A DNA stretch of 64,000 bases from positions 1 to 64,000 of the forward strand of contig CAIUSV010000040.1 in assembly GCA_903901915.1 (NCBI GenBank), in the 5' to 3' direction. Below the pieces are notes generated by a model. That model was not told where the DNA came from. It ran no database searches and saw only the letters and a program-made list of their open reading frames with translations. The position numbers and the translations under genes are program-made. This document shows, piece after piece, positions 1 to 12,984 of this stretch (positions within the stretch are counted from its first letter, which is position 1; every line of letters begins with the position of its first letter). The DNA comes from an uncultured Rhodospirillaceae bacterium. GTDB lineage: Bacteria; Pseudomonadota; Alphaproteobacteria; Rhodospirillales; Magnetospirillaceae.

Positions 1-2253
1 ATCGACGGCGAGATGGGCGGCCTGACGATTGCTCATCCGGGTGTAGGACAGCAGATCGTGGACCAGATCGCCCATGCGCCGGGCGCCGTTGACGATGAAG
101 CCGAGATATTCGGTGGCGGTGGCGTCGAGACCGCCGCCCAGGTGGCGTTGCAGCATCTGCGAGAACGACACCACCGTGCGCACCGGTTCCTGAAGGTCGT
201 GCGAGGTGATGTGGGCGAACCGTTCCAATTCGGCATTCATGCGCGACAGGGCATTCACCGAATCATGCAGTCGGTTTTCGGCGGCCCGGCGTTCCTCGCG
301 GGTCCGGAGGGCGATGATGCCAAAGGCCAGATCCCCCGCCAGTTCTTCGAGAAGGCGGATTTCGTCCGGGGTGAAGGCATTGACCTCGGTGGAGTAGATC
401 AACAGAGCGCCGAAAGCGGTCCCGATCTCATTCTTGAGCGGCAGGGCGATGCCCGAGCGATATCCGTTTAGCATCGCGTCGGTCCGCCAGGAGGCCGCTT
501 GCGGTTCGTCGGAGAAATCCTGAATGCAGACGATGCTGGCGGTTCTGATCGCCGTGCCCGCCGGATCCGGGCCGCGCCCTTCGGTGGGCTCCCCGTTGAG
601 GTTGGCCTTCTCCAGATGGCCGCTATCGGCCCCGGCCCAGGCGACGGGGCGGATGGTTCCGGCCTCGTTGTGCTCGGCATATCCGACCCAGGCCATGCGG
701 TAGCCGGCCTCGTCGCAGACGATGCGGCATATCTCGTTCAGCAGGCTCTGCTCGTCCACGGCGCGCATCAGGGTCTGGTTGCAGTTGCTGATGGCGCGAA
801 GTTCGCGGTTCCGCCGTTGCAAGGTGGCTTCGGCCAGTTTGCGGGGGGTGATGTCGCGGGAAACCGTCATTACGCTGACAACGTGACCGTCGCGATCGAG
901 TTCGGGGAAAGCGAAAACGTTGAACCAGTGGTCGATGCCGTCGGCTTTCGGCCACACCACGTCGGTGTCCTCGGGGATGGCGCTGTCCAGCACCCGGCGA
1001 AGCAGTCCCTGGAGAACCGCCGCGCTGGCCGGGGGCAGTGGAGAGACCTGGAGCGGGGCGCTGGCAATCCATTGAGGCGGTGGCGCCTCCGCCTCCCTGG
1101 TATAGCTCGGGTTGACATAGGTGCGCCGACAGTCGCGGTCGTAGCGCGCGATGATGTCCGGGGAGTTTTCGATCAGGGCGCGGTACACCTGCTGCGCCTC
1201 ATAGAGGGTATCCTCGGCCCGCCGGCGGTCCGTGATGTCGGCGAAGCTGACGACCGAACCCAATACCGCACTGTCGGCGATCACGGGATCAACCCGGTAC
1301 TCCGCCGGAAAACGGCTGCCATCGGAGCGGGTCAGGGTGATTTCGCCGGAAGCGGTATTGCCATGCCGGATGACACCGCAGATGGGGCATTCGGCCGGTT
1401 GGGCGGGTACTCCGAGATGGAGAAGGTCGTGAGCGGGCCGTCCCGCCAGATCGGCATCGGGTGCCAGCCCCAGGATGCGTTGTGCCGCGGCGTTGCAGAA
1501 GGTGATCTTACCCGCCAGATCAGTGCCGTAGATGCCCTCCTGGGTGGAGTTGAGCAGAAGGCTCAGGTTTTCCCGGCTCTCCAGCAACTGGCGCGTACGT
1601 TCCAGAACTTGTTGTTCGAGGCGATCATTGGTTTCGCGCAGGCGCTTCTCGGCGTCGCGACGGGCCTCGTTTTCATGGGTCAGCGCCTCGTTGCTGAGGC
1701 GCAGGCTGGAATAGGCCTCCTGTAGGCGGGCATGGCCGCGTACCGCGTTCTTCAACGTCATCGCGATGTAGGCGAACAGCGTCGGCATGACGTAGGACAT
1801 CTCGTCCAGGCTGACGTGAGTATCGATCAGCTTCAGCACCCCGATCACTTCGGCTCCCACCGCCAGCGGCACTACCCAGGTCCACGCCTTCTCGAACGGC
1901 GTCGACGTCAGTTTGGTGGAGGTGAAATCGGCGGCGACGGCGAAGGGCTTACGCAGTTCAACCGCCTCCAGCACCAGATCGTCATTGATGGCCGAGACCT
2001 GTCGCCGGCTGCCGTCAAGCCGTGCCAGCCGGATGCCATCCTCGGTGAAGACATAGAGGTGGGCATCGGTGCCGCCGATGTTCTCGACCATGCCGGTGAT
2101 GACCGTCGCCATGCACTCTTCGAGTTCATCCTGGCCACCCAAGCGGTTCATCAGGTGGATGATCAACTGAAGGTAGGATTTTTCCCGGGCGAGCCGCCGG
2201 GTGCGATCCTTCAGTGTCGGTCTGGTCGGTGTGCCGCGCGCGGACGGGGTCAT
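1..2253 (-). CDS. PAS/GAF sensor histidine kinase, C-terminus outside the window
   Basis: The frame is open from ATG at 2253 to the window edge, giving at least 751 residues. In order: a GAF-like domain (about 25-165), a coiled linker (about 170-220), a PAS domain (about 225-345), a second PAS domain (about 350-480), a second GAF domain (about 490-650), and a HisKA dimerization/phosphoacceptor domain. The H-box reads HITSHDLQEPVR, with the phosphoacceptor His near residue 685. The ATPase domain lies off the window. No membrane segment is visible, so it is probably a cytoplasmic sensor. The start overlaps the stop of the DUF1638 gene by 4 nt (ATGA), so the kinase is probably co-translated with the corrinoid genes. 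The signal sensed is unknown, and no response regulator is visible on this side. Confidence 0.9.
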   Translation of the reverse strand, partial: MTPSARGTPTRPTLKDRTRRLAREKSYLQLIIHLMNRLGGQDELEECMATVITGMVENIGGTDAHLYVFTEDGIRLARLDGSRRQVSAINDDLVLEAVELRKPFAVAADFTSTKLTSTPFEKAWTWVVPLAVGAEVIGVLKLIDTHVSLDEMSYVMPTLFAYIAMTLKNAVRGHARLQEAYSSLRLSNEALTHENEARRDAEKRLRETNDRLEQQVLERTRQLLESRENLSLLLNSTQEGIYGTDLAGKITFCNAAAQRILGLAPDADLAGRPAHDLLHLGVPAQPAECPICGVIRHGNTASGEITLTRSDGSRFPAEYRVDPVIADSAVLGSVVSFADITDRRRAEDTLYEAQQVYRALIENSPDIIARYDRDCRRTYVNPSYTREAEAPPPQWIASAPLQVSPLPPASAAVLQGLLRRVLDSAIPEDTDVVWPKADGIDHWFNVFAFPELDRDGHVVSVMTVSRDITPRKLAEATLQRRNRELRAISNCNQTLMRAVDEQSLLNEICRIVCDEAGYRMAWVGYAEHNEAGTIRPVAWAGADSGHLEKANLNGEPTEGRGPDPAGTAIRTASIVCIQDFSDEPQAASWRTDAMLNGYRSGIALPLKNEIGTAFGALLIYSTEVNAFTPDEIRLLEELAGDLAFGIIALRTREERRAAENRLHDSVNALSRMNAELERFAHITSHDLQEPVRTVVSFSQMLQRHLGGGLDATATEYLGFIVNGARRMGDLVHDLLSYTRMSNRQAAHLAVD

Positions 2254-2843
2254 GGCGCTCCGCTCAGCCGGTCCAATGCCTTCGCCAGCACCCTTTCGAG
2301 ATGGTCCAGCCCCGCGTCGGTCCAGCGCAACGGCAGAGCGACCGAAGCGGCGGCGTGTTCGGCGGCGGCGGTGAAGTCGCTGGAACACGGCGTGCGGACG
2401 GCCAGGATGTGGGTGCGATCGCCGGCGAATATCTCGGCGGCGATCTCCTGGTGTGGGCCAAACATTTCCGCCATGACGCGGTCCCAGCGCCGCGCCCAGT
2501 CCTCCAGCAGGAAGTAGGCGCCGTCGGCCAATTCCCGGTCGAAGCGCTCGCGCCCCAGCAGCATCTCGATGCAGTTTCGTCCCTCGGTGCGGAAGGTTCC
2601 TGCGTCGGCGACCATGCGGTCGATCAGCGGGTGGCAGCAACCGTAGAAAACGATCGGGCTGCGGTCGTGCTGGCGGGCCAGGGTGTCGGTGAGTTGCCGG
2701 CCCAGCCGGGTCATATTGGTATCCAGCCCCGGGTCGAGAAAGGTGGTCTCCAGCGGCCAGTCGTTGCAGGCGCAAAGATGCCTGATTTCCTTGTGGAGGA
2801 TGCCGCAGCCGACCAGCGAAGGCGGAGCCGGGGGCATGGTCAT
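2250..2843 (-). CDS. DUF1638 family protein in the corrinoid operon
   Basis: A 197-residue soluble protein that I recognise as DUF1638-like. Proteins of this family often sit beside corrinoid methyltransferase genes, but their biochemical role is unknown. Cysteines are frequent: one in the N-terminal VGCG segment, two in LCAC, a Cys-Cys-His-Pro in FYGCCHP near residue 70, and one in RNCIEM near residue 90. That suggests metal or corrinoid chemistry, which is an inference. The ATG at 2843 overlaps the stop of the upstream methyltransferase gene in ATGA, and its own stop overlaps the kinase start the same way. A second in-frame ATG lies two codons later. Confidence 0.8.
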   Translation of the reverse strand: MTMPPAPPSLVGCGILHKEIRHLCACNDWPLETTFLDPGLDTNMTRLGRQLTDTLARQHDRSPIVFYGCCHPLIDRMVADAGTFRTEGRNCIEMLLGRERFDRELADGAYFLLEDWARRWDRVMAEMFGPHQEIAAEIFAGDRTHILAVRTPCSSDFTAAAEHAAASVALPLRWTDAGLDHLERVLAKALDRLSGAP

Positions 2844-3886
2844 GGTGCGGCCCCCGCTTCCAGCCGCCCGTACTCGAACGCGGCCTCCAGCATGGTGCGG
2901 ACGGTGCGCTCGGGCAGGGCCAACGGCATCAGCAGGGTACCGAACAGGAAGCGGCCGCCCGTCTTTCCGGCGTTGACGATGCGGGCGACTTCGGCGCGGA
3001 TTTCCTCCTCGCTCCAGCGCACCAGCTTGATGTCGTCGATGATGCCGCAGACCAGTCCGCGACCGGCAACCTGTCGGACGCCCTCGGCGACATCCTCCAG
3101 CGGGCTGAGGTAGAAGCTCCGGAAGTCCAGGGCACGGATGACGCCGTCGATCACCCGGTTCATGCGGGCGCCGCCGCAATAATAGACCATGTCGGCGACG
3201 CCGCCGGTCTTCAGGTCGCGCCGCATCCACGGCAGCGACAATTCGTCGAACATCCGGCGGGACACGATATCGGTGGAGCCGAACGGGTTGGAATAGACCA
3301 GGACATCGGCGCCGGCGGCGCGGTAGGCGGCGATCTCCTTGGCACAGAACTCCGAGCATTTGGCCAACAGCTCGTCGCGCAGGTCGGTGGGACCAAGCAA
3401 CAGCAGTTCCATCCACTTTTCCATGCCCATCAGCAGCGCCGGCAAGGCCATCGAGGCGGTGATGTAGGCGCAGATCGGGACTCGTCCGCCGATCTCGGCC
3501 CGCAGCAGCTCGATGCACCGGCGGACCGGGGCGAACTGGGGATGGCCGAACAGGTCGTCGGGGACACGAAGGCGGTGGATGTCGGCGGGGTCCTTGATGA
3601 TGAAGTCGGCGACGTTGGGCGGGCCGTCCTCGGCGTATAGGATATCCCGGCAACCCAGCAGTTCGGCCTCCTTGCCGACGTAAAACAGGCTCCAGACGTT
3701 GTCGTAGCCGTAACGTGCCCGCATACGCAGTTGGGCTTCCGCCACCAGATCCGCCGAGTTGTAGTAGTCGCGCAACGACACCCCCATCTCCCGCGCGCCC
3801 TGGTCAAGCAGGTTGCAGAAGACCGGAATGCGATCGCAGGGGGATCCCTGGGCGGCGGCGCGCAGTCTGTCCATTCCCGTGATCAT
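2840..3886 (-). CDS. UroD/MtaA-like corrinoid methyltransferase
   Basis: A 348-residue protein of the uroporphyrinogen decarboxylase/MtaA/CmuA superfamily, a TIM barrel. Members either decarboxylate uroporphyrinogen or move methyl groups between a corrinoid protein and a thiol. The corrinoid-protein gene directly upstream, coupled by an ATGA overlap, argues for methyl transfer. In MtaA-type enzymes zinc is held by His-x-Cys and a later Cys. Here the first motif reads Tyr-Tyr-Cys (235-237), so the His is replaced, and the C-terminal segment (GRFLFGTLLMPLALP) has no Cys. Either the metal site is altered or the substrate is not a simple thiol. The enzyme class is fairly secure; the methyl donor and acceptor are unknown. 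Confidence 0.85.
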   Translation of the reverse strand: MITGMDRLRAAAQGSPCDRIPVFCNLLDQGAREMGVSLRDYYNSADLVAEAQLRMRARYGYDNVWSLFYVGKEAELLGCRDILYAEDGPPNVADFIIKDPADIHRLRVPDDLFGHPQFAPVRRCIELLRAEIGGRVPICAYITASMALPALLMGMEKWMELLLLGPTDLRDELLAKCSEFCAKEIAAYRAAGADVLVYSNPFGSTDIVSRRMFDELSLPWMRRDLKTGGVADMVYYCGGARMNRVIDGVIRALDFRSFYLSPLEDVAEGVRQVAGRGLVCGIIDDIKLVRWSEEEIRAEVARIVNAGKTGGRFLFGTLLMPLALPERTVRTMLEAAFEYGRLEAGAAP

Positions 3887-4551
3887 CGCCGCACCTGCCC
3901 GATCAGCCCGATGATGGCCCGGCCGGCGGAAATGCCGTCGGGAGCCCAGGCATCGGCGCCGACCCGCCGGTAGAGATAGGGGTCGAAACGGAAGGGCGCG
4001 CCGCCGGCGGCAATCTTGATCCGGTCGGCAAGGCCGCGCTGATCGATGATCTCGCGCACCGCCAGACAGCCCTCGGGTCCCTGGGCTGTGTGCATCATCA
4101 TCGCCGAAATGCCGATGACATCGGCACCGTGGGCGACCGCCTCATCGACGAAGCGTTCCGGCGGAACGTTGACGCCGAGGTCGATGGCCTCGACCATCAG
4201 CGAGCGCAGGCAGCCCATGACGATGCGCTTGCCCAGGGAATGAAGATCGCCCTTGGCGGTACCCACCACCGCCTTGCCCACGACCTTGGGCGGCTTGGCG
4301 AACAGCGGCAGCATTTCCTCGGTGACTTGCGAGGCGATCTGGGCGGTCATGAAGTGTTGGGCGAGGTTGCTGTCGAAATCCTCGGCGATGGCCCGCATCA
4401 TGGTTTCGACACCGGGGATCACCACCTTGAAGACGATGTCCTCGGGGCTGCACCCCTGCCAGACCGCCTCCCGCACCACGGAAAGCGCGCGGTCGCGGTC
4501 GGTATCGAAGACCGCCTCGTTGTAGGCACGGATGATGGAGTCCAGCATCAT
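3883..4551 (-). CDS. B12-binding corrinoid protein (MtaC/MtbC-like)
   Basis: A 222-residue methyl-carrying corrinoid protein. An N-terminal helical cap domain (about 1-85) is followed by a B12-binding Rossmann domain (about 88-215). The base-off/His-on motif D-x-H-x-x-G is present as GDLHSLG (Asp102, His104, Gly107), and a distal AAGGAPF segment lies near the nucleotide tail site. The length fits the MtaC/MtbC/MttC family. It is the first gene of a four-gene minus-strand run joined by ATGA overlaps. The ATG at 4551 has a good upstream ribosome site (GGGAGA). An adjacent Met codon at 4548 is an alternative start. No gene for a substrate-specific B subunit such as MtaB, MttB or MtgB is visible. 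Confidence 0.92.
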   Translation of the reverse strand: MMLDSIIRAYNEAVFDTDRDRALSVVREAVWQGCSPEDIVFKVVIPGVETMMRAIAEDFDSNLAQHFMTAQIASQVTEEMLPLFAKPPKVVGKAVVGTAKGDLHSLGKRIVMGCLRSLMVEAIDLGVNVPPERFVDEAVAHGADVIGISAMMMHTAQGPEGCLAVREIIDQRGLADRIKIAAGGAPFRFDPYLYRRVGADAWAPDGISAGRAIIGLIGQVRR

Positions 4552-4628
4552 GGCCCGTCTCCCACGAAAGGATCAGTGTATACCCTTTGGAGTAGTGGAG
4601 CTATCCTGATGCTTGGGGATGGCGTGGT
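4552..4628. promoter_or_regulatory. divergent promoter region of the corrinoid module
   Basis: This is the space between the divergent corrinoid-protein and activator genes, so it must hold at least the minus-strand promoter. A TATACA element on the minus strand near 4576-4581 could be a -10 box, but no convincing -35 accompanies it. No cobalamin-riboswitch B12 box is visible. The region grows to 194 nt if the activator starts at 4746. Confidence 0.4.
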
Positions 4629-5843
4629 ATGGGCGCGATGTCTCGATCGCATGACGTCGGATCAGGAGGCGGGCAAACGATCCCGGCGAGGTCGGATTGG
4701 CAGCCGCTGGTCGATCTGCCCCCGCTGGTCATGTCCCCGCAGGTCATGTCGACGACGGCGAGGGTGGCGGCGGTTGATCTGGGGTCCAGCCGCATCCGTG
4801 TATCGTTGTGCGACTTTGCCGCCGGGCGGCGGCTGGGAGCAATGGTTGGCGCCAATCCCCAGCTTACCGAGGGCGTCGATGTGCTGACCCGGCTGGCGGC
4901 GGCGCGTGAACCGGAGGCAGCCGCCAGGCTGGCGGAACTGGCGGTGAAGGCGATCGGCGAGGGACTTGCCGAGGCCCGGGTTCAAGCCGGTGGCGATACC
5001 CCTCGGGTGGAGCGGTTGGCCATCGTGGGCAACACCGCCATGCTGTCGCTGCTGAGCCGGCGCGGCAGCCAAGACTTGCTGCAACCCGAGCATTGGGGCC
5101 GACCGATCGATTGCCGACCGGTGGAAACCGGGGCATGGCGGAAGTGCTGGGGCCTTGCCGATGTCGCCGAACTGGTGGTGGTCGAGCCGCTGGGGGGCTT
5201 TGTCGGGTCGGATCTGCTGGCCGCGGCGCTGGCGTGCGGCCTGACCGGTGGGCCACCCGGCAGCCTGCTGATCGATTTCGGCACCAATACCGAGATTGCC
5301 CTGTGGGATGGCGAAACGGTCTTGGTCACCGCCGCGGCCGGCGGCCCGGCCTTCGAGGTCTGGGGCGCATCGGGACATCGCGCCTCGACCACGGTCGGTC
5401 TGATCGCCGATCTGCGTCGCCGGGGGGAACTCGACCGGTTGGGGCGACGACGGGCGGGCGGTGAGCGCCATCCGCACCCATCCTGTGCCCAGGTCGATGG
5501 CTTTGTCCGGGCAAAGGCGGCGGTGGCCGCCGGGGTGGAGTATGTACTGGTCCGGTCGGGGATGACCGGCCCCGGACTTGTACGTACCATCGTTACCGGC
5601 GCCTTCGGCCACGATCTCGATGTGAACGACGCGCGGGAGATCGGGCTGGTGCCGGCGGGTGGCGCGGTGGAATTGCGGCAGGATCTCGCCCTGCTTGGCT
5701 GCGAGATGATGGCGGCGGGGACTCCGGTGGCGGTGGAGGGACTGCGGGAGGTACGGCGGCGGGCGCGACTGATCAATCTGGCCATCGCGCCCGAGTACGA
5801 GGATCTGTTCGTCCACAATTTAAAATTGCAGCCCTCTGACTAA
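4629..5843 (+). CDS. RACo-type corrinoid reductive activator, ASKHA domain only
   Basis: This protein resembles the C-terminal ATP-dependent ASKHA part (DUF4445) of corrinoid activators such as RACo and RamA, which reduce inactive Co(II) corrinoid to Co(I). The sugar-kinase/actin fold motifs are visible: a phosphate loop VDLGSSRIRVSL near residue 50, LLIDFGTNTEIAL near residue 220, and an AAGGPAFE segment near residue 240. Known activators begin with a [2Fe-2S] ferredoxin domain, and no CxxxxCxxC pattern is seen here. With the start at 4629 the protein is 404 residues; the first 39 look partly non-coding in base use, and ATG at 4746 is an alternative giving 365 residues. It is divergent from the corrinoid-protein gene, its likely substrate. 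The electron donor is unknown. Confidence 0.82.
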   Translation: MGAMSRSHDVGSGGGQTIPARSDWQPLVDLPPLVMSPQVMSTTARVAAVDLGSSRIRVSLCDFAAGRRLGAMVGANPQLTEGVDVLTRLAAAREPEAAARLAELAVKAIGEGLAEARVQAGGDTPRVERLAIVGNTAMLSLLSRRGSQDLLQPEHWGRPIDCRPVETGAWRKCWGLADVAELVVVEPLGGFVGSDLLAAALACGLTGGPPGSLLIDFGTNTEIALWDGETVLVTAAAGGPAFEVWGASGHRASTTVGLIADLRRRGELDRLGRRRAGGERHPHPSCAQVDGFVRAKAAVAAGVEYVLVRSGMTGPGLVRTIVTGAFGHDLDVNDAREIGLVPAGGAVELRQDLALLGCEMMAAGTPVAVEGLREVRRRARLINLAIAPEYEDLFVHNLKLQPSD

Positions 5844-6538
5844 CGAAAACGGAAGGGAACCGAGAAGGTAAGCTGCGCCGGGGTGGCTCCGGCCGGCGGC
5901 GGCGGGAATGGGGTGGCGGCGCGTACGGTGGCCAGGGCCGCGCGGTTCAAGGCGGGATCGCCATCCGACTCGATCACCTCGGCCGAGATCAGGCCGCCGT
6001 CCTCGGCCAGGGCGAAGACGACGGTGGCGGTCCCCGGCAATTTCATGCCGCGCGGCTTGTGGGCGGCGATCCTGGCCCAGATGAGTTGGGCATATCGGCG
6101 CAGACCGTCATCATCGGACGGGCCGCCGGTTCCCGCATGATCGGGAGGCGGAGGAGGGGAGGGCGCCGACACCACGGTGTTGGCGGGCTCCGCCATTTGG
6201 TCGCCAATTGGCTGGTCGGTTGCGGCGGTGGGTGGTTCGGCCACCGGCTTGGGGGCGGAAATCGCGCGTGATCTCGGCTTGGAAGCGGGGGTTGGTATTG
6301 GGGGGGGCTTGGACGGTTCCGCTGCCGGCGGGTCGTTCGGGATGGAAGAGGGGACGGTGGGCTGGACGATTTCGACGGTGAAATTGCCCGAGTCTCCCGA
6401 AACGGCGACGGTATCGACCATCATCAGCAGCACGACGGCGTGAATCCCGAAGGACAGCGCCAAGCTCAACCATTTCCCCGCCCGACTCCAGCCGGGGCGG
6501 CGAACGGGAGGAACGCGGTCGTCGATTCGTCCTGTCAT
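5840..6538 (-). CDS. tonB: TonB energy transducer
   Basis: A 232-residue TonB. A short cytoplasmic N-terminus precedes one membrane anchor (KWLSLALSFGIHAVVLLMM, about 20-42). A long periplasmic Pro/Ala/Lys-rich stretch (about 60-145) follows, then the C-terminal TonB fold (about 150-232) ending in FSVPFRFR. It couples the ExbB/ExbD proton-driven motor to an outer-membrane receptor; no exbB or exbD is in the window. It lies directly downstream of a TonB-dependent receptor and probably serves it. An ATG at 6592, touching the receptor stop, would add 18 residues, but a strong hairpin (6552-6585) lies between the two, so 6538 is preferred. Confidence 0.88.
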   Translation of the reverse strand: MTGRIDDRVPPVRRPGWSRAGKWLSLALSFGIHAVVLLMMVDTVAVSGDSGNFTVEIVQPTVPSSIPNDPPAAEPSKPPPIPTPASKPRSRAISAPKPVAEPPTAATDQPIGDQMAEPANTVVSAPSPPPPPDHAGTGGPSDDDGLRRYAQLIWARIAAHKPRGMKLPGTATVVFALAEDGGLISAEVIESDGDPALNRAALATVRAATPFPPPPAGATPAQLTFSVPFRFR

Positions 6539-6551
6539 GGCCGTGATAGCG

Positions 6552-6585
6552 CCGGAGGCGACCGCCGGCCGGAAGTCGCCTCCGG
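6552..6585 (-). promoter_or_regulatory. hairpin between receptor and tonB genes
   Basis: A perfect 11-bp inverted repeat (6552-6562 and 6575-6585) with a 12-nt loop lies between the receptor stop and the preferred tonB start. There is no downstream U-run on the minus strand, so it looks more like an mRNA-processing or attenuation element than a simple intrinsic terminator. Confidence 0.55.
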
Positions 6586-6591
6586 GGGGCA

Positions 6592-8754
6592 TCAGAACTT
6601 CACCGTCACGCCGGCGTTGAACGAACGTCCCGGCGCGGGAAGGGGGCCGACCTGTCCCTGGCGGGCGCTGCTCCTCCAGTCGGCATAATCGACGCCGCCG
6701 AGCGGATGGTAGTAGCGGCGGTCGAACAGGTTGTCGATGCCGAGGTTGAGTTGAACGCTTTCCCAGTCATAGCCCGAGCGCAGGTTGATCAACGCATAGC
6801 CGGGAGTCCGCCGTTCGTTGCGTAGCGGGTCGACCTGGGTCTTGGCCGCGACCAGGGCCAGTTCCACCGCGCTTTTCCAGCCGCCCAGGCTGTGCTCGAT
6901 CGCGGTTTTGCCGTTGATCGGCATCATGTGGTAGAGGCTTTTTCCGGTGTTGACCGATTCGCCGTGAACCCAGCCCACCACTCCGGACCACCGGACGTTA
7001 CCGTAATCGGCATTCCGCCAGAGACCGGCGCCGCCCGACAGATCGACGCCGTACATCATGGCATCGTGATTGGCGATCTTCAGCAGCGGAAAGGAACTGC
7101 CGCTGCTGAAGATGTTGGATACCGGGCTGACGCCGATATAATCGACCACATAGGTGTAATACGGGGTGATCTTGGCGGTCCAGTCCTTGGCGGCGGGATC
7201 GTGCAGGGCGGCGGAGAGGCTGATCGTGTGGGCAACCTCCGGCCGCAGATCGGGATCGCCGACATAACCGTTGACGTCGCCGAACCAGTTGTTCATCTCG
7301 CTGTCCATGGACTGGGTGCCCCAGGAATAGCGTTCATAGAGATTGGGCGAGCGGCTCTTGCGGGCGTAGCCGAACTCGTTGGTGCTGGACTGCGTCGGCT
7401 CGTAGCGCACCAGCGCCGTCATGTCGAAATTGTAGTCGACCCGCGCCCGGTCGCGGGCGTTGAAGGCGGTGGCCGCCCGGTAGTCCACGGCGTTCATCCC
7501 GCCGTTGCCGTAGGCCGCCACAGGGCCGGTGTCGCTCCATACGGTATCGTTCCTGGCGCCCAGCAGGGTTGACCATTCCGGTGCCCATCGGCTCTCCCAT
7601 TCGATGAACGTACCCAGCCGGTCGCGCCGGCCATCGTGGATGTTCTTGTAGGCGTTGGGGCTCATCATGCCGCTGCCGGCCTGGGGCCACCAGTCTTCCA
7701 GCCGGAAGACGTGCAACTCGTTGCCCAGTCGCAAGGTGTCGGTGGTACCGAGCGGAAGTTCCGCCTTCACTTCGTAGCCGGCGTCGGTGCCTTTGGTTTT
7801 CATGGGCATGTTGCCGGTTCTTTCCGACAAGATGATGTTCATGTCGTGGCGGACCGACTGCCAGAACACCTTGGTCTCCAGCTTGCCCCAGTCGAACTCG
7901 CCCTCGTGGCGGCCGTTGAGGAAGGTGCTCCGGTTGCCGGTAAGGTCCATGCGCTGGTTGGCGAAGCCCTCGTACGGGATGAACTGCTGGCCGCCCTGGA
8001 TGGCGACGAACTGTCCCTCGTGCCGGGCGGCCAGGGTGGCGGCATGGTTGCGGGACTCATACAAGGTGGAATGGACGGCGGTATGGTCGCCGCCGGCATA
8101 GTAGTCGCGGCCTTTTACCCACGATCCGGTGTAGCCGAGGCTGAAGATGCCGGTGGCGGCGGTCAGGGCCGCCGATCCGCCGATGCCGTCATTGACGCTG
8201 CGATAGAAGGTGGAAAGAGATCCCTCGGTGTGGACGGACTCACCCGGATTGGCGAAAACCGGCGGCGTCGATTTCACCACGATGGAACCGCCGATATTGT
8301 CGCCGCCGACGCTGACCGGCGAGATTCCCGCCCACACATCCATCACCGCCACTCGTGACGGATCGATATAGGACAGGCTGGGGTTCATGTGGTTGGGGCA
8401 GGCCGAGGTCAGTTCCATGCCGTCGACGGTGACCCTCAGGCGGTCGTCGCCCAGGCCGTGGATGTCGGGCAGCGCCGAGACCCCGCCGCCGGTATAGAGG
8501 TTGACTCCCGGCACGGTCTCCAGAAGGGCCGCGGCATCGGTGGTTCCCGGAGCCTTGCTGTAGCGGGCCGGACCAAGCACGACGCGGTCGGCGGGCGGTG
8601 TGGCAAGATCTCCCGACGTTTCCACCTGAACCGGTGGCAGCGGCGTGGCGCTCTGGGCCGAAGCCGTCGTCGTGGCGAGCGATAGCGCGGAAACCATGAC
8701 CATGCCCGACAGCAAGGCATGAATGGACGTGGATGCTTTCAATCTTGGTGACAT
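6592..8754 (-). CDS. TonB-dependent receptor, OprC/NosA copper-receptor type
   Basis: A 720-residue outer-membrane receptor. A signal peptide (about 1-34, ending TTTASAQ) is followed by a TonB-box-like start of the mature chain, a plug domain (about 65-170), and a 22-strand barrel ending in aromatic GVTVKF. The plug contains ACPNHMNPSLSYIDP, with Cys-x-x-x-Met followed by Asn-Pro. In OprC of Pseudomonas a CxxxM motif at the equivalent plug position binds copper, so copper is the likely substrate. The neighbours, a DUF2946 protein upstream and tonB downstream, match copper-receptor loci. ATG at 8754 has a GGGGA ribosome site; ATG at 8784 lies inside a hairpin and is less likely. Confidence 0.88.
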   Translation of the reverse strand: MSPRLKASTSIHALLSGMVMVSALSLATTTASAQSATPLPPVQVETSGDLATPPADRVVLGPARYSKAPGTTDAAALLETVPGVNLYTGGGVSALPDIHGLGDDRLRVTVDGMELTSACPNHMNPSLSYIDPSRVAVMDVWAGISPVSVGGDNIGGSIVVKSTPPVFANPGESVHTEGSLSTFYRSVNDGIGGSAALTAATGIFSLGYTGSWVKGRDYYAGGDHTAVHSTLYESRNHAATLAARHEGQFVAIQGGQQFIPYEGFANQRMDLTGNRSTFLNGRHEGEFDWGKLETKVFWQSVRHDMNIILSERTGNMPMKTKGTDAGYEVKAELPLGTTDTLRLGNELHVFRLEDWWPQAGSGMMSPNAYKNIHDGRRDRLGTFIEWESRWAPEWSTLLGARNDTVWSDTGPVAAYGNGGMNAVDYRAATAFNARDRARVDYNFDMTALVRYEPTQSSTNEFGYARKSRSPNLYERYSWGTQSMDSEMNNWFGDVNGYVGDPDLRPEVAHTISLSAALHDPAAKDWTAKITPYYTYVVDYIGVSPVSNIFSSGSSFPLLKIANHDAMMYGVDLSGGAGLWRNADYGNVRWSGVVGWVHGESVNTGKSLYHMMPINGKTAIEHSLGGWKSAVELALVAAKTQVDPLRNERRTPGYALINLRSGYDWESVQLNLGIDNLFDRRYYHPLGGVDYADWRSSARQGQVGPLPAPGRSFNAGVTVKF

Positions 8755-8769
8755 GTCGATTCCCCAACC

Positions 8770-8795
8770 CGGCAGTTCCCGCACGGGGACTGCCG
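8770..8795 (-). promoter_or_regulatory. hairpin just upstream of the receptor ribosome site
   Basis: Two 7-nt arms (8770-8776 and 8789-8795) continue, after one mismatch, into a 4-bp inner stem, making an almost continuous 12-step hairpin. It ends about 15 nt before the receptor start codon. It could control access to the ribosome site or mark a processing point between the DUF2946 and receptor genes. Confidence 0.5.
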
Positions 8796-8885
8796 ATAGC
8801 CTCCCGGCGTTGCAGCCCGGGGGCGGAAGTCCAAAGGAGCCGGCGCCGCGTCCTGGCGCGGGCCGGCGATGAAGCGGCTTCGGAC

Positions 8886-9266
8886 TCAGGCGCTGGGGGG
8901 CGCCCTTGCGTTATTGTGGAGGGAGAAGACGTCCGGCGGTATCGCATCGGCGCCACGCGCGAAGGCGATGGCCGTGGTTGGCTCGATCGGCGCGATGACG
9001 CCAAGGGCGGGCGGAGTGAGTTGGATATCCTGGCTGGCGTGGCAAACGACGCAGCAATCATGGGCCGCGCGGGGTTGATCGCTACCACCACTTGGTTCAC
9101 CCGCCGTGGGTGAATGGCAAATTTCCCCGGCGAGACCGGATGGCCCCTGAAGAAGCGAAGGAGAACGGGCAGACAGATCGCCGACCGAGCCGAGGAACAG
9201 GACAAGGGAGAGCAGCCACGCAACCGCGCCCTTCCACGTTCCCCTAGTCGGCCCTTGATCAGCCAC
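8886..9266 (-). CDS. DUF2946-like small exported protein
   Basis: A 126-residue protein with one hydrophobic N-terminal segment (AVAWLLSLVLFLGSVGDL, about 14-32), probably a signal peptide or anchor. The periplasmic part holds the pattern HDCCVVCHASQD (Cys-Cys-x-x-Cys-His, about residues 69-77), a plausible metal site. DUF2946 proteins are often encoded next to TonB-dependent copper receptors, and this copy lies 131 nt upstream of one on the same strand. The start is GTG at 9266 with a GGGGGAA ribosome site. The exact biochemical role is unknown; copper binding or delivery to the receptor is an inference. Confidence 0.75.
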   Translation of the reverse strand: MADQGPTRGTWKGAVAWLLSLVLFLGSVGDLSARSPSLLQGPSGLAGEICHSPTAGEPSGGSDQPRAAHDCCVVCHASQDIQLTPPALGVIAPIEPTTAIAFARGADAIPPDVFSLHNNARAPPSA

Positions 9267-9400
9267 CGCGTTCCCCCAACCAGATGCATCGGTATAGAAC
9301 GGTTCTTCTTTTCCGTACAGCCGCTTTCAGCCGTGCCGCGGGTAAGAATGGCCCAATAACTAGGCCATGAGTGGTAAGGGGGTGATTCCGGCGTGAAACA

Positions 9401-9433
9401 AAGAAAAAGGCCGGAAACCTAAGGTTTCCGGCC
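9401..9433 (-). terminator. intrinsic terminator of the tRNA transcript
   Basis: A perfect 12-bp inverted repeat (9409-9420 and 9422-9433) is followed on the minus strand by a T-rich run (complement of 9401-9408). It lies directly downstream of tRNA-Asn and should end the tRNA transcript. Confidence 0.9.
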
Positions 9434-9438
9434 CTATC

Positions 9439-9513
9439 TGGCTCCGGAGGAGGGATTCGAACCCCCGACCAGCCGGTTAACAGCCGGCTGCTCTACCGCT
9501 GAGCTACTCCGGA
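9439..9513 (-). tRNA. tRNA-Asn (anticodon GTT)
   Basis: The 75-nt sequence folds as a cloverleaf: acceptor TCCGGAG/CTCCGGA, D arm GCTC-GAGC, anticodon stem GCCGG/CCGGC with loop CTGTTAA, and T arm GGGGG-TTCGAAT-CCCTC. The discriminator is G and the 3' CCA is encoded (9439-9441). Confidence 0.97.
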
Positions 9514-9590
9514 TCGGCGAACTACCGCGACATGCGCGGCAAGCCGATAAAATCCAAGCTCGCGATCACGTCGCCCTGGCCCGGGGACGG

Positions 9591-9664
9591 TGGAGGCCGA
9601 GGCCGGAATTGAACCGACGTACGCGGATTTGCAGTCCGCTGCATAGCCACTCTGCCACCCGGCC
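9591..9664 (-). tRNA. tRNA-Cys (anticodon GCA)
   Basis: A 74-nt cloverleaf with acceptor GGCCGGG/CTCGGCC, anticodon loop CTGCAAA giving GCA, T-loop TTCAATT, discriminator T and encoded CCA. It lies 77 nt upstream of tRNA-Asn on the same strand and probably shares its transcript. Confidence 0.97.
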
Positions 9665-9704
9665 CAACCGGTCCGGCCGGCCTTGGGCCGACGTGAGGAC
9701 CGAG

Positions 9705-9733
9705 CTTATACGCGCTGGCGTTCTCGCGGTCAA
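9705..9733 (-). promoter_or_regulatory. sigma-70 promoter for the tRNA-Cys/tRNA-Asn operon
   Basis: On the minus strand, TTGACC (9728-9733) and TATAAG (9705-9710) are separated by exactly 17 nt. The predicted start of transcription falls about 35 nt before tRNA-Cys. Confidence 0.8.
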
Positions 9734-9758
9734 GCCGCTGCTGCATGGTGCTACGGCA

Positions 9759-9787
9759 TTGTTTTTGGGCGCGACCGCGCCTATAAA
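9759..9787 (+). promoter_or_regulatory. sigma-70 promoter for the PCMT-tolC genes
   Basis: TTGTTT (9759-9764), a 17-nt spacer and TATAAA (9782-9787) stand about 75 nt before the ATG at 9861. It is back-to-back with the tRNA promoter. Confidence 0.7.
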
Positions 9788-9860
9788 TTCCGGCGGCGGC
9801 GTTGTCCCGAATCCGGGGACGGTCCGCCGGTTCGGCTGCGCACCAGGGAGCAGGCTCGTC

Positions 9861-10514
9861 ATGGATTTCGTCACCGCACGCCATAAGATGATGGACAATC
9901 AGATCCTCACCAACCGGGTCACTGATCCCCGGGTGTCCGAGGCGCTTGCCTCGACGCCGAGGGAGGTCTTCCTGCCCCGTCAGATGCGCGGGTTCGCCTA
10001 TGTGGACGAAGACGTGGCGATCGGGGGCGGTCGCTTCCTGATCGAGCCGCTGGTTCTGGCCCGTCTTCTCCAGAAGGTCGGTATCGGCAAGACCGATGTG
10101 GTTCTGACCATCGGCGACGCCACCGGCTGGGCCAGCGCCGTGGTCTCCAAGATCGCCAGCACCGTCGTGTCGCTGGAGTGCGAGCCCGAGATGGTGTCGC
10201 GCTCGACCGCGACCCTGTCCGAGCAGGGGGTGGATAACGTCGCGGTTGTCCATGGAGACCTTGCCGCCGGTTTTCCCGCCCAGGCGCCTTATGACGCTAT
10301 TGTTTTCATCGGCGCGGTGGCGGAGATCCCCGCCGCGATCATCCGCCAGCTTGCTGACGGTGGCCGTCTGATTGCGGTGGTTGACGATGGAAACGGTATC
10401 GGTCGAGGGGTTCTGGTGGTCAGGGCCGGCGACTCGTTCGGTCGCAATACGCTGTTCGACGCCCAGACGCCTCACTTGCCCGGTTTCGCGCCCAAACCGA
10501 AATTCGTGTTCTGA
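9861..10514 (+). CDS. PCMT-family methyltransferase-like protein
   Basis: A 217-residue protein of the protein-L-isoaspartate O-methyltransferase (PCMT) family. The N-terminal PCMT region has MMDNQILTNRVTDPRV and REVFLP, and the SAM-binding Rossmann fold follows (VVLTIGDATGWASAVVSKIA, near residue 85). The usual glycine-rich motif is GxGxGY; here it is IGDATGWA, so SAM binding may be altered. Active enzymes repair isoaspartyl residues in the cytoplasm. Alphaproteobacteria commonly have such a gene directly upstream of tolC, as here, and the two may be co-transcribed from the promoter at 9759. Whether this copy is a repair enzyme is not certain. Confidence 0.85.
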   Translation: MDFVTARHKMMDNQILTNRVTDPRVSEALASTPREVFLPRQMRGFAYVDEDVAIGGGRFLIEPLVLARLLQKVGIGKTDVVLTIGDATGWASAVVSKIASTVVSLECEPEMVSRSTATLSEQGVDNVAVVHGDLAAGFPAQAPYDAIVFIGAVAEIPAAIIRQLADGGRLIAVVDDGNGIGRGVLVVRAGDSFGRNTLFDAQTPHLPGFAPKPKFVF

Positions 10515-10633
10515 AACTTCTGTCGGCCGGTGGCGTGCGTCGCCGTCCGGCAGCCGCCCCGGGCCGGGAATAGTCCTTGATCTTCCGGTCCGGGCCGTTA
10601 AGGTTCGGGGACGATCTTCCGGCTGCTTTAGGA

Positions 10634-12040
10634 ATGGGAGTCCCGGTATTGTCGCGCAGAATTGGTATGTTGAGGGCTGGAACAAGTCTGGCCGGCGTGC
10701 TGCTGATGACGTTGGTCGCAGTCGAACCCGCCTGTGGTGAAACCCTCGACGAGGTGCTGGCGTCGACCTACTCCGGCAATCCAACCCTGCTGGCGCGGCG
10801 CGCGAGGTTGCGGGCGGCGGATGAAGCCGTGCCACAGGCGCTGGCCAACTGGCGTCCCACGGTATCGATGGCGGGGTCGGTCGGCCGAGGCAACTACAGC
10901 AACAACGCCTACAGCCGGTACGAGGTGACGCGCAACCCCAAGACCGGCTCGGTCACCCTTACCCAGCCGCTGTTCCGGGGGGGGCGCACCGTCGCCGCCA
11001 CCTCCCAGGCCGAAAACAACGTCCTGTCCGAGCAGTCCCTGCTGGCCGCCACCGAACAGTCCATCCTGCTGGCCGCCGCCAACGCCTATCTCAACGTGGT
11101 GCGCGACGAGGAAGTGCTGAAGCTGTCCGTCAACAACGAGCAGGTGCTGCGTCGGCAGCTCGAAGCGACGCAGGAGCGCTTCAAGGTCGGCGAGATCACC
11201 CGCACCGACGTCAGCCAGGCGGAGGCCCGCCTGTCCAAGGCGACCGCCGATCGGGTCGCGGCCGAGGGAACGCTGCAAAGCTCGCGGGCCAATTATATCA
11301 ACAACGTCGGGCGGCCGCCGGAGGCGTTGCGTCAACCGGCGGTGCCCGCGGCTCTGCCGGCCAGTCTCGACGAGGTCAACGCCGTCGGCCTCAGGGATAA
11401 TCCCAATGTCGTGGCGGCGGATTACGCGACCGCCGCTGCCAAGGACGGCGTCGATCTGGTGTTCGGCGAATTGCTGCCGACGGTGTCGGTCAGTGCCGAT
11501 GTAAGTCGGACACTCTCGACGGCGACCATCAAGTCCGAGACCATCGCGCGCGAAGTGCTGCTGAACCTGTCGATCCCCCTTTACGAGGGCGGTGCCACCT
11601 ATGCGCGGGTGCGGGCCTCCAAGCATACCGCAGGGCAGCGCCGCATCGAATCCGATCAGGCGCGACGCGATGCCGTCGAGACCGGAACCAAGGCCTGGGA
11701 GGGGTTGCAGGCCGCCCGCGCCCAGGCGAAGGCCTATGACAGCCAGATCAAGGCATCGGAACTGGCTCTGGCCGGCGTTCGCGAGGAATCCAAGGTGGGA
11801 TCGCGCACCGTACTCGACGTGCTCAATGCCGAACAGGAACTGTTCGATGCCCGCGTCAATATGGTTAAGGCGCAGCACGACGTATTGGTGGCCGCGTTCC
11901 AGGTAAAATCCGCCATGGGCCAGTTGACAGCCAAGGCCCTCAATCTTTCCGTCGAAATCTACGATCCGGCCAAACACTCCGACGATGTGCGATGGAAGTG
12001 GATCGGCAACGGCATCGACAGCGTGAATGGATACGAGTAG
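10634..12040 (+). CDS. tolC: TolC-family outer-membrane export channel
   Basis: A TolC-family channel of about 468 residues. A signal peptide (hydrophobic LAGVLLMTLVAV, cleavage near ACGETL) is followed by two tandem repeats of beta strands and long coiled-coil helices. Visible landmarks are TLDEVLASTYSGNPTLLARRA at the mature N-terminus, TQPLFRGG in the first repeat and LSIPLYEGG in the second, each a typical TolC strand pair. It forms the trimeric exit duct for type I secretion and multidrug efflux; no inner-membrane or adaptor genes are adjacent. The start is uncertain: ATG at 10634 (used here), ATG at 10667 or TTG at 10577. Confidence 0.92.
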   Translation: MGVPVLSRRIGMLRAGTSLAGVLLMTLVAVEPACGETLDEVLASTYSGNPTLLARRARLRAADEAVPQALANWRPTVSMAGSVGRGNYSNNAYSRYEVTRNPKTGSVTLTQPLFRGGRTVAATSQAENNVLSEQSLLAATEQSILLAAANAYLNVVRDEEVLKLSVNNEQVLRRQLEATQERFKVGEITRTDVSQAEARLSKATADRVAAEGTLQSSRANYINNVGRPPEALRQPAVPAALPASLDEVNAVGLRDNPNVVAADYATAAAKDGVDLVFGELLPTVSVSADVSRTLSTATIKSETIAREVLLNLSIPLYEGGATYARVRASKHTAGQRRIESDQARRDAVETGTKAWEGLQAARAQAKAYDSQIKASELALAGVREESKVGSRTVLDVLNAEQELFDARVNMVKAQHDVLVAAFQVKSAMGQLTAKALNLSVEIYDPAKHSDDVRWKWIGNGIDSVNGYE

Positions 12041-12184
12041 AAGGATAGGGACTTTGGGGAATGCCGGCAGCGCACCGAATTTCCTCTTTGAGGGTCCGCA
12101 GGATTTTAATGATTTGTTACCGACCGTACGGCATTATTGCGGCGGGACCCCGTTTCGGGCGCAGGCAGACAAGATAGCCGTGAC

Positions 12185-12895
12185 ATGAGCGAAGACAAGC
12201 CCCAGCAAGAACCATCAATGGAGGACATCCTTGCCTCCATCCGGCGAATCTTGTCGGAGGATGAGGTCGAGGATAAGCCGAAGGCGCCGGAGCCACCGCC
12301 GCCCGAGCTCGAGCCCGAGCCGGAACCCGAGCCGGAACCTGAGCCCGAGCCTGAGCCTGAGCCTGAGCCGGTACCCGAACCGGCGCCGACCTTCGCTCAG
12401 GATGATATCGACTCCATGTTCGACACGCCGGCGCCGGCGCCCGAACCGGAGCCCGAGCCAGAGCCCGAAGACGATGTTCTCGAATTGACCGAGGACATGG
12501 TGCTGGAAGAGGCGCCGGAAGAGCCCGAGCCCGCCTTCGACATCAATGATTTCAAGGCCGATCTCGGTGATTTCGAGCCCGAACCGGTGGTCGCCGCTCC
12601 GTTGATCGATGATTATCAGCCGCCGCGCCGTACTTCCCGCCCGGCCGATGACGACGCGCTGATGGATCCGCCAAATATCGAGCATGGCGCCTCGTTGCTG
12701 TCCAATCTGGCGCGCGAGATCGTCCGGCAAAAGTCCTTCGGTCTCGGCAACAGTGCCGTGACTCTGGAGGATTTGGTCAACGAGTTGCTGCGTCCGATCC
12801 TTAAGGAATGGCTCGATCAGAACCTTCCCTACATGATCGAACGCATCGTCAAGAAAGAGATCGAGAGGATGGTCAATCGGTCCGAGGACTACTAG
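12185..12895 (+). CDS. popZ: PopZ-type polar organizing protein (DUF2497)
   Basis: A 236-residue PopZ homologue. The N-terminal helix [17 protein letters not shown] (about 11-27) is the conserved partner-binding region. A very acidic, proline-rich linker (about 30-160) contains ten Glu-Pro pairs in a row. The C-terminal DUF2497 region (about 170-236) holds the oligomerization helices ([11 protein letters not shown] and [26 protein letters not shown]). In Caulobacter PopZ forms a polar matrix that tethers ParB-bound centromeres and collects cell-cycle regulators; the same role is inferred here. The start at 12185 fits the N-terminal motif; an upstream in-frame start would add 16 residues unlike the family. 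It lies upstream of valS. Confidence 0.92.
12311..12370 (+). repeat. Glu-Pro codon repeat in popZ
   Basis: Ten consecutive 6-nt units of the form GAR-CCN encode an unbroken Glu-Pro repeat. Most units differ only at the third codon positions. A shorter second run lies near 12440-12470. Such tracts are prone to length change by slippage. Confidence 0.9.
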
Positions 12896-12917
12896 CCTCC
12901 GCCGGACCCATGCCACC

Positions 12918-12953
12918 AAGGGCGGCCCGGCGGATCGGGCCGCCCTTGCCGTT
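12918..12953 (+). terminator. hairpin between popZ and valS (terminator or attenuator)
   Basis: A perfect 12-bp stem (12918-12929 and 12936-12947) with a 6-nt loop is followed by GCCGTTT. It lies 23 nt after the popZ stop and about 30 nt before the valS start. The U-run is short, so it could terminate popZ or act as a partial attenuator for valS. Confidence 0.6.
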
Positions 12954-12984
12954 TCCAACCCGAGAAGAGGGCGAGACGTTCGCC

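Follow-up and report, generated by a model that had tools for sequence, protein, structure and literature searches.

The corrinoid methyl-transfer genes at the start of this contig, a kind of set that normally serves metabolism, adjoin a sensor kinase gene, and comparison with relatives showed that the same set adjoins, or is fused with, signalling proteins in many unrelated bacteria, which suggests the sensing of a methylated compound or of the cofactor's state. We consider a sensory role for the module likely, and we lean, somewhat less firmly, toward the narrower view that the corrinoid/UroD/DUF1638 set is the sensory input for a two-component or c-di-GMP output and not a complete C1 pathway. 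On whether the module works by methyl transfer, we regard the case as about evenly balanced.

Gene Organization of the Locus

The window (the whole stretch of DNA analysed, 64,000 nt, C40:1-64000) begins at the contig start, and the ATPase domain of the kinase lies outside it; two fragments, C79:1-153 at the start of its contig and C32:39040-39165, resemble the missing kinase end, with 82% and 79% identity to locus L014, respectively. Coordinates and Pfam matches bore out the arrangement described in the sequence-only reading, namely four minus-strand genes joined by three ATGA overlaps, with a divergent RACo-like gene (Table 1). ATGA stands on the minus strand at each overlap (3883-3886, 2840-2843, and 2250-2253), the gap between the RACo-like and corrinoid genes is 77 bp, and the kinase domains run, by Pfam and the dedicated profile, in the order dedicated GAF-like, PAS, PAS, GAF, HisKA.

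Table 1. Features of the module in the window.
Feature	Position	Strand	Basis
Corrinoid (cobalamin-binding) protein, 222 aa	3883-4551	-	Pfam B12-binding 2.3e-22, B12-binding_2 6.9e-5
URO-D (MtaA/CdmB-like) protein, 348 aa	2840-3886	-	Pfam URO-D 6.2e-47
DUF1638 protein, 197 aa from ATG at 2843	2250-2843	-	Pfam 1.1e-24
Sensor histidine kinase, truncated 3' by the contig end (751 aa read)	1-2253	-	Pfam
Dedicated N-terminal GAF-like domain of the kinase, residues 13-184	1702-2217	-	Profile match C40:1699-2217
RACo-like corrinoid activator	4629-5843	+ (divergent)	Pfam RACo middle and C-terminal regions

Because the same 4-base overlaps recur among the adjacent gene pairs of fetched relatives (corrinoid/UroD 60/73, UroD/DUF1638 30/59, DUF1638/kinase 19/50), the junctions exceed what chance would give. 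Recent acquisition of foreign DNA was rejected on composition, with nothing striking in a GC content of 0.658 where the remainder of the window has 0.640. Only two tRNAs and no known RNA element were found at the gathering threshold in positions 1-15000, and positions 4400-5000 gave neither a consensus sigma-70 promoter nor an intrinsic terminator.

Corrinoid Protein, Activator, and UroD Protein

The residues D102-x-H104-x-x-G107, S149, and GG183-184 of the corrinoid protein are invariant in 60 aligned sequences. D-x-H-x-x-G with Ser and Gly-Gly is the base-off cobalamin-binding motif, and by this motif the protein classes as a methyltransferase corrinoid protein with predicted corrinoid binding. 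Fer2, the N-terminal 2Fe-2S domain, is missing from the RACo-like protein of the window and from that of L014; L070 and L018 do have it. In an alignment with six other RACo proteins, the window protein is also short of about 30 ASKHA residues and the G-x-CGSG motif. With neither the Fe-S domain nor a complete ASKHA domain, it is possibly impaired, and the intact RACo on contig C52 might serve the module in trans.

At 160.7 bits against a curated cut-off of 23.9 for the URO-D domain, the second protein is a member of the UroD superfamily; its closest solved relative is 4ay7 (1.7e-20), and its match to CdmB is distant (3.5e-8). The zinc ligands of MtaA and MtbA are His-x-Cys plus a distal Cys. 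In the columns of the 4ay7 ligands our clade carries Tyr (57/59), Cys (54/59), and Thr (55/59), and the window protein has Tyr235 and Thr317 at two of the three MtaA positions. With two of three ligands replaced and every NCBIfam cut-off missed (MtaA 71.8 of 400 bits, MtbA 56.2 of 600, MtaA/CmuA family 71.0 of 235.4), membership of MtaA/MtbA was rejected. Loss of these ligands is no bar to function, since CdmB works without zinc, according to the available excerpt of PMC13222342; the same excerpt describes CdmB, MtvB, OdmB, and VdmB as UroD-family proteins acting as the substrate-side methyltransferase in bacteria.

The UroD protein may thus itself be the substrate-specific subunit, and the earlier statement that the locus has no such B subunit is not established, although MttB and MtaB are indeed absent genome-wide. 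The parallel statement about a pterin-binding methyltransferase holds for the unit, as the pterin-binding, methyl-accepting MTII is not among the five genes of the module, but not for the genome, where contig C52 carries a separate corrinoid/UroD/RACo/MTHFR cluster with a pterin-binding methyltransferase.

DUF1638 and Its Fusions

DUF1638 has conserved residues Cys11, Cys68-His69-Pro70, Asn88-Cys89, and Cys151 (numbered from the ATG at 2837) and a confidently predicted structure (pLDDT 93.2). It had no match among solved structures up to E 1 and, by Foldseek of the model, none at E ≤ 0.001; a search of viral contigs gave one pattern match and no relative. In a second UroD clade, DUF1638 forms the kinase N-terminus in 7/7 uncut loci, in L016 it is fused to PAS-GGDEF, and in L061, L071, and L087 it is fused to the dedicated GAF domain plus a kinase; the DUF1638 matches in L016 and in four of the seven second-clade fusions lie below the Pfam cut-off. 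As a control, 16 of 41 possible genomes were fetched, which yielded 12 DUF1638 loci outside the module that have corrinoid proteins and are without UroD, the dedicated GAF domain, or a kinase motif. We propose that DUF1638, a companion of corrinoid proteins, serves here as a coupling part.

Linkage to Signalling Proteins Across Relatives

A scan based on the UroD protein found 129 relatives in many phyla, and the best 80 of these were kept. Seventy-two loci were readable, that is, had a called UroD gene followed by a gene on the same strand; the UroD gene was not called in L063, L090, and L094. Genes were called with a codon-usage script that missed DUF1638 in 4/16 control loci, and all loci were counted, including L014/L026 and L015/L070, which are apparently the same contigs, and L028/L029, which look near-identical. 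The gene neighbourhood was recovered in other genomes, its adjacency to a kinase conserved over many phyla, and the module is present in cultured strains such as Methylobacter tundripaludum SV96 and several Methylomonas.

The product of the next same-strand gene, usually a histidine kinase, contained one copy of the dedicated GAF domain in 67/72 loci; the fetched loci held 78 occurrences of the domain in all, and the other 11 fell inside module loci too. Among 398 sampled genomes, a sample not fully independent because the GAF profile was built from public genomes that possibly include some of them, the domain occurred in 11, and the same 11 had a strong UroD match about 0.6 kb away. The domain is predicted to adopt a GAF fold (pLDDT 91.9); many GAF domains were among the top Foldseek matches (188 at E ≤ 0.001), and its Pfam GAF_3 match is weak (20.1 bits against a cut-off of 27). 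We propose it as the receiver of the module's signal.

Sensor outputs vary: among the 25 commonest families listed, HisKA and HATPase_c each occurred in 52/67 sensors, GGDEF in 3/67, and EAL in 2/67, the scan covering 67 of 78 sensors and omitting nine longer than 1150 aa along with those of L014 and L015. UroD distances correlated with those of the GAF domain at 0.82 and with those of the kinase core at 0.52 (the same 43 loci; pairs non-independent). With other references, each on a different locus set and again with non-independent pairs, the values were 0.58 for the GAF domain and 0.67 for the kinase core against the corrinoid protein, and 0.62 for both against DUF1638; here the GAF domain does not track the module better than the kinase core, which is a point against the sensory reading.

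Proteins of other kinds occupy the sensor position in L021, L065, and L072, and L085, which represents a small third lineage, keeps the gene order with a PAS kinase. Neither DUF1638 nor the dedicated GAF domain is universal, since 14 UroD-sensor pairs have no intervening DUF1638 gene and the second-clade sensors are without the GAF domain. These exceptions count against the sensory reading, as do the fusion matches below the Pfam cut-off, the finding of only 39 RACo genes near the 80 loci, and the impaired look of the RACo-like protein in the window.

Proposed Mechanism and Alternatives

Taken together, the sequence comparisons support a genuine association of the module with the signalling protein, DUF1638 and the GAF domain being the likely coupling parts. 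In the working we propose, a RACo-type activator would keep the corrinoid protein in the Co(I) state, and DUF1638 would read the state of that protein. The dedicated GAF domain would receive this information, or the kinase itself where the two are fused; the kinase would then signal through response regulators, and some lineages would drive a GGDEF or GGDEF-EAL output. The earlier suggestion of a sensor for corrinoid or methyl status gains strong comparative support from the adjacency, the dedicated GAF domain, the DUF1638-kinase and DUF1638-GGDEF fusions, and the varying outputs, but we only infer whether a methyl donor or the redox state of the corrinoid is the signal, in which direction the system responds, and in what order the components make contact.

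Chance adjacency in kinase-rich genomes is scarcely credible as an explanation. The host genome does hold 90 matches to one kinase core (E ≤ 1e-8), and a HisKA or GGDEF motif occurs in 78/757 other genes of the 80 loci, but the counts for one specific GAF domain (67/72 loci, 11/11 genomes) and the gene fusions contradict it. A light sensor, in which photolysis of methyl- or adenosyl-corrinoid alters the corrinoid protein and the kinase reads the change as in CarH and photocobilins, seems very improbable: among solved structures the corrinoid profile is closest to two corrinoid proteins of methyltransferases, 7xcn and 3ezx, and to the predicted cobalamin-binding 1y80, and the B12 photoreceptors known to us come without a methyltransferase and activator. 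The profile does weakly match 8j2w, 8j2x, and 8j2y, and B12-domain photoreceptors with GGDEF-type outputs have been described (PMC10979010, PMC11796333).

Two readings deserve more weight, though we think both unlikely. The module might sense redox state or oxygen, the signal being Co(I) versus Co(II) corrinoid that RACo resets; UroD would then do no more than hold or tune the corrinoid protein, and a methyl donor would play no part. In the neighbour clusters no other partner but RACo (39 genes) recurs, and DUF1638 has been linked to B12 reactivation (excerpt of PMC5764234); against this, the UroD-type methyltransferase is highly conserved in sequence and retained in every clade seen, and the fetched second-clade loci gave no RACo match. 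We give slightly less credence to a metabolic demethylation module whose expression is under its own kinase, with enzymes from other loci, for example those of C52, carrying the methyl group onward. The corrinoid protein, UroD protein, and activator do belong to catabolic families, and the genome has the C52 pterin-binding methyltransferase and an MTHFR-type protein. However, no pterin-binding or other C1 gene was found among the 25 largest neighbour clusters listed, fusion with DUF1638 links the kinase to the proteins of the set themselves, and co-directional neighbours are mostly further signalling genes (25 commonest families listed; 77 of the 82 downstream genes scanned, leaving aside two short ones and three module sensors), for which reason we favour a module induced by its own substrate less.

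Returning to the sensory reading, we envisage a class of input systems made up of a corrinoid protein, a UroD-like methyltransferase, usually DUF1638, and optionally RACo, in which a methyl donor would be reported by real methyl transfer to cobalt. In such systems, whose genes occur in at least three UroD lineages across many phyla, DUF1638 and/or the GAF domain would relay the corrinoid state to kinases or c-di-GMP enzymes; our opinion on this generalization is evenly divided. If it is true, bacteria would detect a chemically unreactive methylated compound through a reaction with it and would use ATP to reset the system. It would also assign a role to DUF1638 and explain why methanotrophs, Geobacter relatives, and iron oxidisers carry such genes next to kinases.

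Comparison With Known Systems

As the sequence-only reading had supposed, no description of a pathway or module with exactly this gene set was found in the open-licence literature searched. MtaA/MtbA of methylotrophic methanogens share with the window unit the UroD fold and a corrinoid partner, whereas the unit adds the kinase and DUF1638 and differs at the zinc-ligand positions noted above. MsmS and RdmS are sensor kinases encoded near methylsulfide methyltransferase genes in Methanosarcina, a placement like that of our kinase; unlike the module, they sense through their own heme and, to our knowledge, are not fused to corrinoid-module proteins. In the CdmB/OdmB/VdmB/MtvB demethylase and dehalogenase systems, a UroD-family protein feeds a corrinoid protein, as here, but those systems have a methyl-accepting MTII where the module has kinases instead (excerpt of PMC13222342). 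Type 1 mlp clusters resemble the module in having UroD-like proteins, one corrinoid protein, Ram/RACo, and no folate methyltransferase; their definition asks for two or more Mlps together with a corrinoid protein and Ram, all genes being co-directional (excerpt of PMC10418091), and the module, with one UroD gene and a divergent RACo, was rejected as a member. The text of that paper contains neither "sensor" nor "DUF", and its two occurrences of "kinase" are metabolic enzymes. In Phaeobacter methionine synthesis, DUF1638 accompanies a corrinoid protein and a RACo/RamA-like activator, as here; unlike here, that set has no kinase, and the excerpt of PMC5764234 proposes no specific DUF1638 function. 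CarH and the photocobilins, set apart above as light sensors, are like the module in using a B12-binding domain for signalling, in some cases near a GGDEF-type output (PMC10979010, PMC11796333).

The corrinoid module in the window

The window's own genome is 4.1 Mb with a completeness of 99.86%, and the window is the start of its contig C40. The sequence-only reading had described four minus-strand genes joined by three ATGA overlaps beside a divergent RACo-like gene, which coordinates and domains bore out; the overlapping genes encode a corrinoid protein, a URO-D (UroD) protein, a DUF1638 protein and a sensor kinase with PAS, GAF and HisKA domains, the kinase gene being incomplete and extending past the end of C40. 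Two fragments on other contigs (C79:1-153, where that contig begins, and C32:39040-39165) share about 80% identity with the kinase end of L014, one of the fetched loci (L numbers) with related UroD genes; kinase paralogues may have caused the break in the assembly.

The product of the RACo-like gene is a short protein in which Pfam matched the middle region and part of the C-terminal region and no Fer2, and when aligned with six other RACo proteins it lacked the Fe-S domain, about 30 ASKHA residues and the G-x-CGSG motif. Fer2 was also missing from the L014 RACo and present in that of L070. Gene decay is one possible cause in the window, an assembly artefact another. At window 5840-8784, outside the module, two genes run towards the RACo gene, one for a TonB-type protein and one for a TonB-dependent receptor with a Plug domain.

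Positions of features in the window and in fetched loci
Feature	Sequence	Position	Strand	Basis or remark
ATGA overlaps of minus-strand genes	window	3883-3886, 2840-2843, 2250-2253	-	sequence
RACo-like gene	window	4629-5843	+ (divergent)	Pfam
Two tRNA genes	window	9442-9513, 9594-9664	-	
Corrinoid C1 cluster, complete-looking	L018 (own genome, C52)	2794-10587		separate from window module
Hybrid kinase with hemerythrin start and PAS, in the usual sensor place after DUF1638	L065	11729-15163		Pfam
Kinase with ethylene-receptor-like N-terminus (ETR1_N, 3.6e-26)	L072	11633-13918		beside corrinoid-UroD fusion and DUF1638

A dedicated GAF domain ties the sensor to the module

The signalling protein is part of the module. 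A profile built from the first ~190 residues of three module kinases matched 78 proteins in the fetched loci; the domain itself, when modelled, is a GAF fold (pLDDT 91.9). Where a same-strand gene follows UroD, directly or with DUF1638 in between, its product matched in 67 of 72 cases; the 11 further matches all lay in module loci (the window, L014, L015, L063 and, further along the gene runs of L022, L024, L027, L033 and L036, seven more genes). Two of the five misses were L033 and L036, in which this dedicated GAF is encoded further down the run. In the other three, L021, L065 and L072, the profile found no dedicated GAF; the start of a second L065 protein (4860-7700) resembles, by eye, the ethylene-receptor-like kinase of L072.

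Across 398 genomes of the phylum, the dedicated GAF occurred in 11, the window's own among them, and strong UroD matches (at least 537 bits) occurred in the same 11, spaced ~610-660 bp from it, room for one DUF1638 gene. Six more genomes held only weaker UroD matches (~200 bits). The chance adjacency of kinase and module that the sequence-only reading had left to be checked by a neighbourhood search is thus countered by both the next-gene count and all 11 strong-UroD genomes.

On the same 43 loci, UroD distances correlated with those of the GAF domain at 0.82 and of the kinase core at 0.52, while GAF and kinase core correlated at 0.50 despite sharing one polypeptide. With the corrinoid protein as reference the values were 0.58 (GAF) and 0.67 (kinase core), and with DUF1638 0.62 for both, each on different locus sets; in the wider table 15 of 15 pairs lay beyond 500 permutations. 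The wider table is thus less decisive, and we take the correlations as no more than support for co-inheritance and, in the case of UroD, for coupling to the GAF domain.

The input of the module sensors is constant and their outputs vary: Pfam found HisKA in 52 of 67, HATPase_c in 52, receivers in 23, GGDEF in three, EAL in two and DUF1638 in three. A HisKA or GGDEF motif was present in 51/78 module sensors vs 78/757 other genes of the 80 loci. Co-directional neighbours were also mostly signalling genes, with receivers in 47/77 downstream and 26/48 upstream proteins scanned and HisKA in 24/77 and 23/48; CheW-type and MCP-type genes (two of each by Pfam) lie directly upstream of the module in L025 and L027. 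Genes for PhnD-like periplasmic binding proteins were seen repeatedly in runs near the module (Phosphonate-bd in 3/77 downstream and 3/48 upstream proteins; by eye, at L021 11806, L055 3939, L057 16284, L072 4532 and L093 4911).

Distribution and the place of DUF1638

UroD matched at E<=1e-30 in 4 of 60 genomes (own plus 59 relatives) and in 1 of 16 other genomes of the genus, and the module is therefore accessory. A three-protein UroD alignment, scanned against 84,980 genomes, found 129 relatives, of which we kept the best 80; by record titles these include Geobacteraceae, Methylomonas, Methylobacter, Nitrospirae, Chloroflexi, Bacteroidetes, Gallionellaceae, Mariprofundus, Anammoxibacter and others. 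Their commonest order was RACo, corrinoid protein, UroD, DUF1638, signalling protein. Clustering of genes up to six positions away gave a cluster of 171 members, rich in proteins of kinase type, clusters of UroD (78), corrinoid protein (72), DUF1638 (57) and RACo (39), and next a 15-member cluster, REC-GGDEF-EAL-like by its example; the 25 clusters listed held no methyltransferase or C1 family beyond the module.

In the UroD tree (97 rows), the window's clade (83 rows) was separated from a second clade (9 rows) with SH-aLRT 96. DUF1638 formed the N-terminus of a HATPase_c protein in all seven uncut second-clade loci (L134, L136 and L142, cut by contig ends, are left out), five also with HisKA; four of these DUF1638 matches fell under the Pfam cut-off (19.3 to 26.1 bits vs 27) and are weak, though consistent in position and context. 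No RACo was found in the second-clade loci fetched. First-clade fusions of DUF1638, dedicated GAF and kinase occurred in L061, L071 and L087 (L061 and L087 by Pfam), and a PAS-GGDEF protein of L016 has a DUF1638-like N-terminal part (22.8 bits). Fourteen UroD-sensor pairs had no DUF1638 gene inside, which counts against DUF1638 as sole link.

Divergent second copies of corrinoid protein, UroD and DUF1638 stand beside the first-clade module in L040 (17212-20994) and L085 (15135-19518). In this third small lineage a PAS protein follows DUF1638; that of L085 also carries HisKA, HATPase_c and a receiver, and that of L040 is cut.

DUF1638 itself was present in 57 of the 398 genomes. From 41 DUF1638 genomes without a listed UroD match we fetched 16 control loci, and DUF1638 was called in 12. 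Eleven of these 12 had a corrinoid protein and five RACo; module UroD, dedicated GAF and HisKA/GGDEF motifs were found in 0/12. This pattern agrees with two reports, in which Phaeobacter methionine synthesis needs DUF1638 and a RamA-like protein, the specific role of DUF1638 not being proposed (PMC5764234), and both proteins are more abundant in Ruegeria growing on N-osmolytes (PMC12478193).

A separate catabolic-looking set and the proposed signal

One genome holds both a catabolic-looking corrinoid set and, separately, the window set with its kinase. The C52 cluster encodes a corrinoid protein, a UroD protein matching the chloromethane methyltransferase CdmB (2.2e-35), a RACo with all domains, a pterin-binding methyltransferase, an MTHFR-type protein and, by eye, an amidohydrolase-like protein. 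The earlier statement that the module has neither a B subunit nor a pterin-binding methyltransferase extends to the whole genome for MttB and MtaB, but not for the pterin-binding methyltransferase. A second corrinoid protein-UroD pair lies on C84 (L017 8839-10751), with no recognised activator in the fetched stretch.

The corrinoid protein kept D-x-H-x-x-G, Ser and Gly-Gly in 60/60 sequences, and the UroD profile aligned with 4ay7 over positions 6-339 of 344. At what we take to be the MtaA zinc-ligand positions, the UroD set had Tyr (57/59), Cys (54/59) and Thr (55/59); with Tyr and Thr at two of the three, the protein is probably not an MtaA-type thiol methyltransferase. It may instead be a substrate-side methyltransferase or a ligand binder, because zinc-free UroD-type enzymes exist: CdmB is one that feeds a corrinoid protein (PMC13222342).

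We consider a sensory role for the module probable. UroD would methylate the corrinoid protein or not, RACo would reset it, and DUF1638 with the GAF domain would read its state, setting a kinase or c-di-GMP output. That the signal is methyl transfer has, in our judgement, an even chance; that the redox state of the corrinoid is signalled instead seems unlikely.

The open-licence PMC literature, outside which most subscription papers lie, gave no account of a corrinoid methyltransferase module that serves sensory input, and no pathway with this gene set, as had been supposed earlier. The parts belong to known families and the two-component output is known; the input class appears undescribed. 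The closest printed work found there is on the type 1 mlp clusters (PMC10418091).
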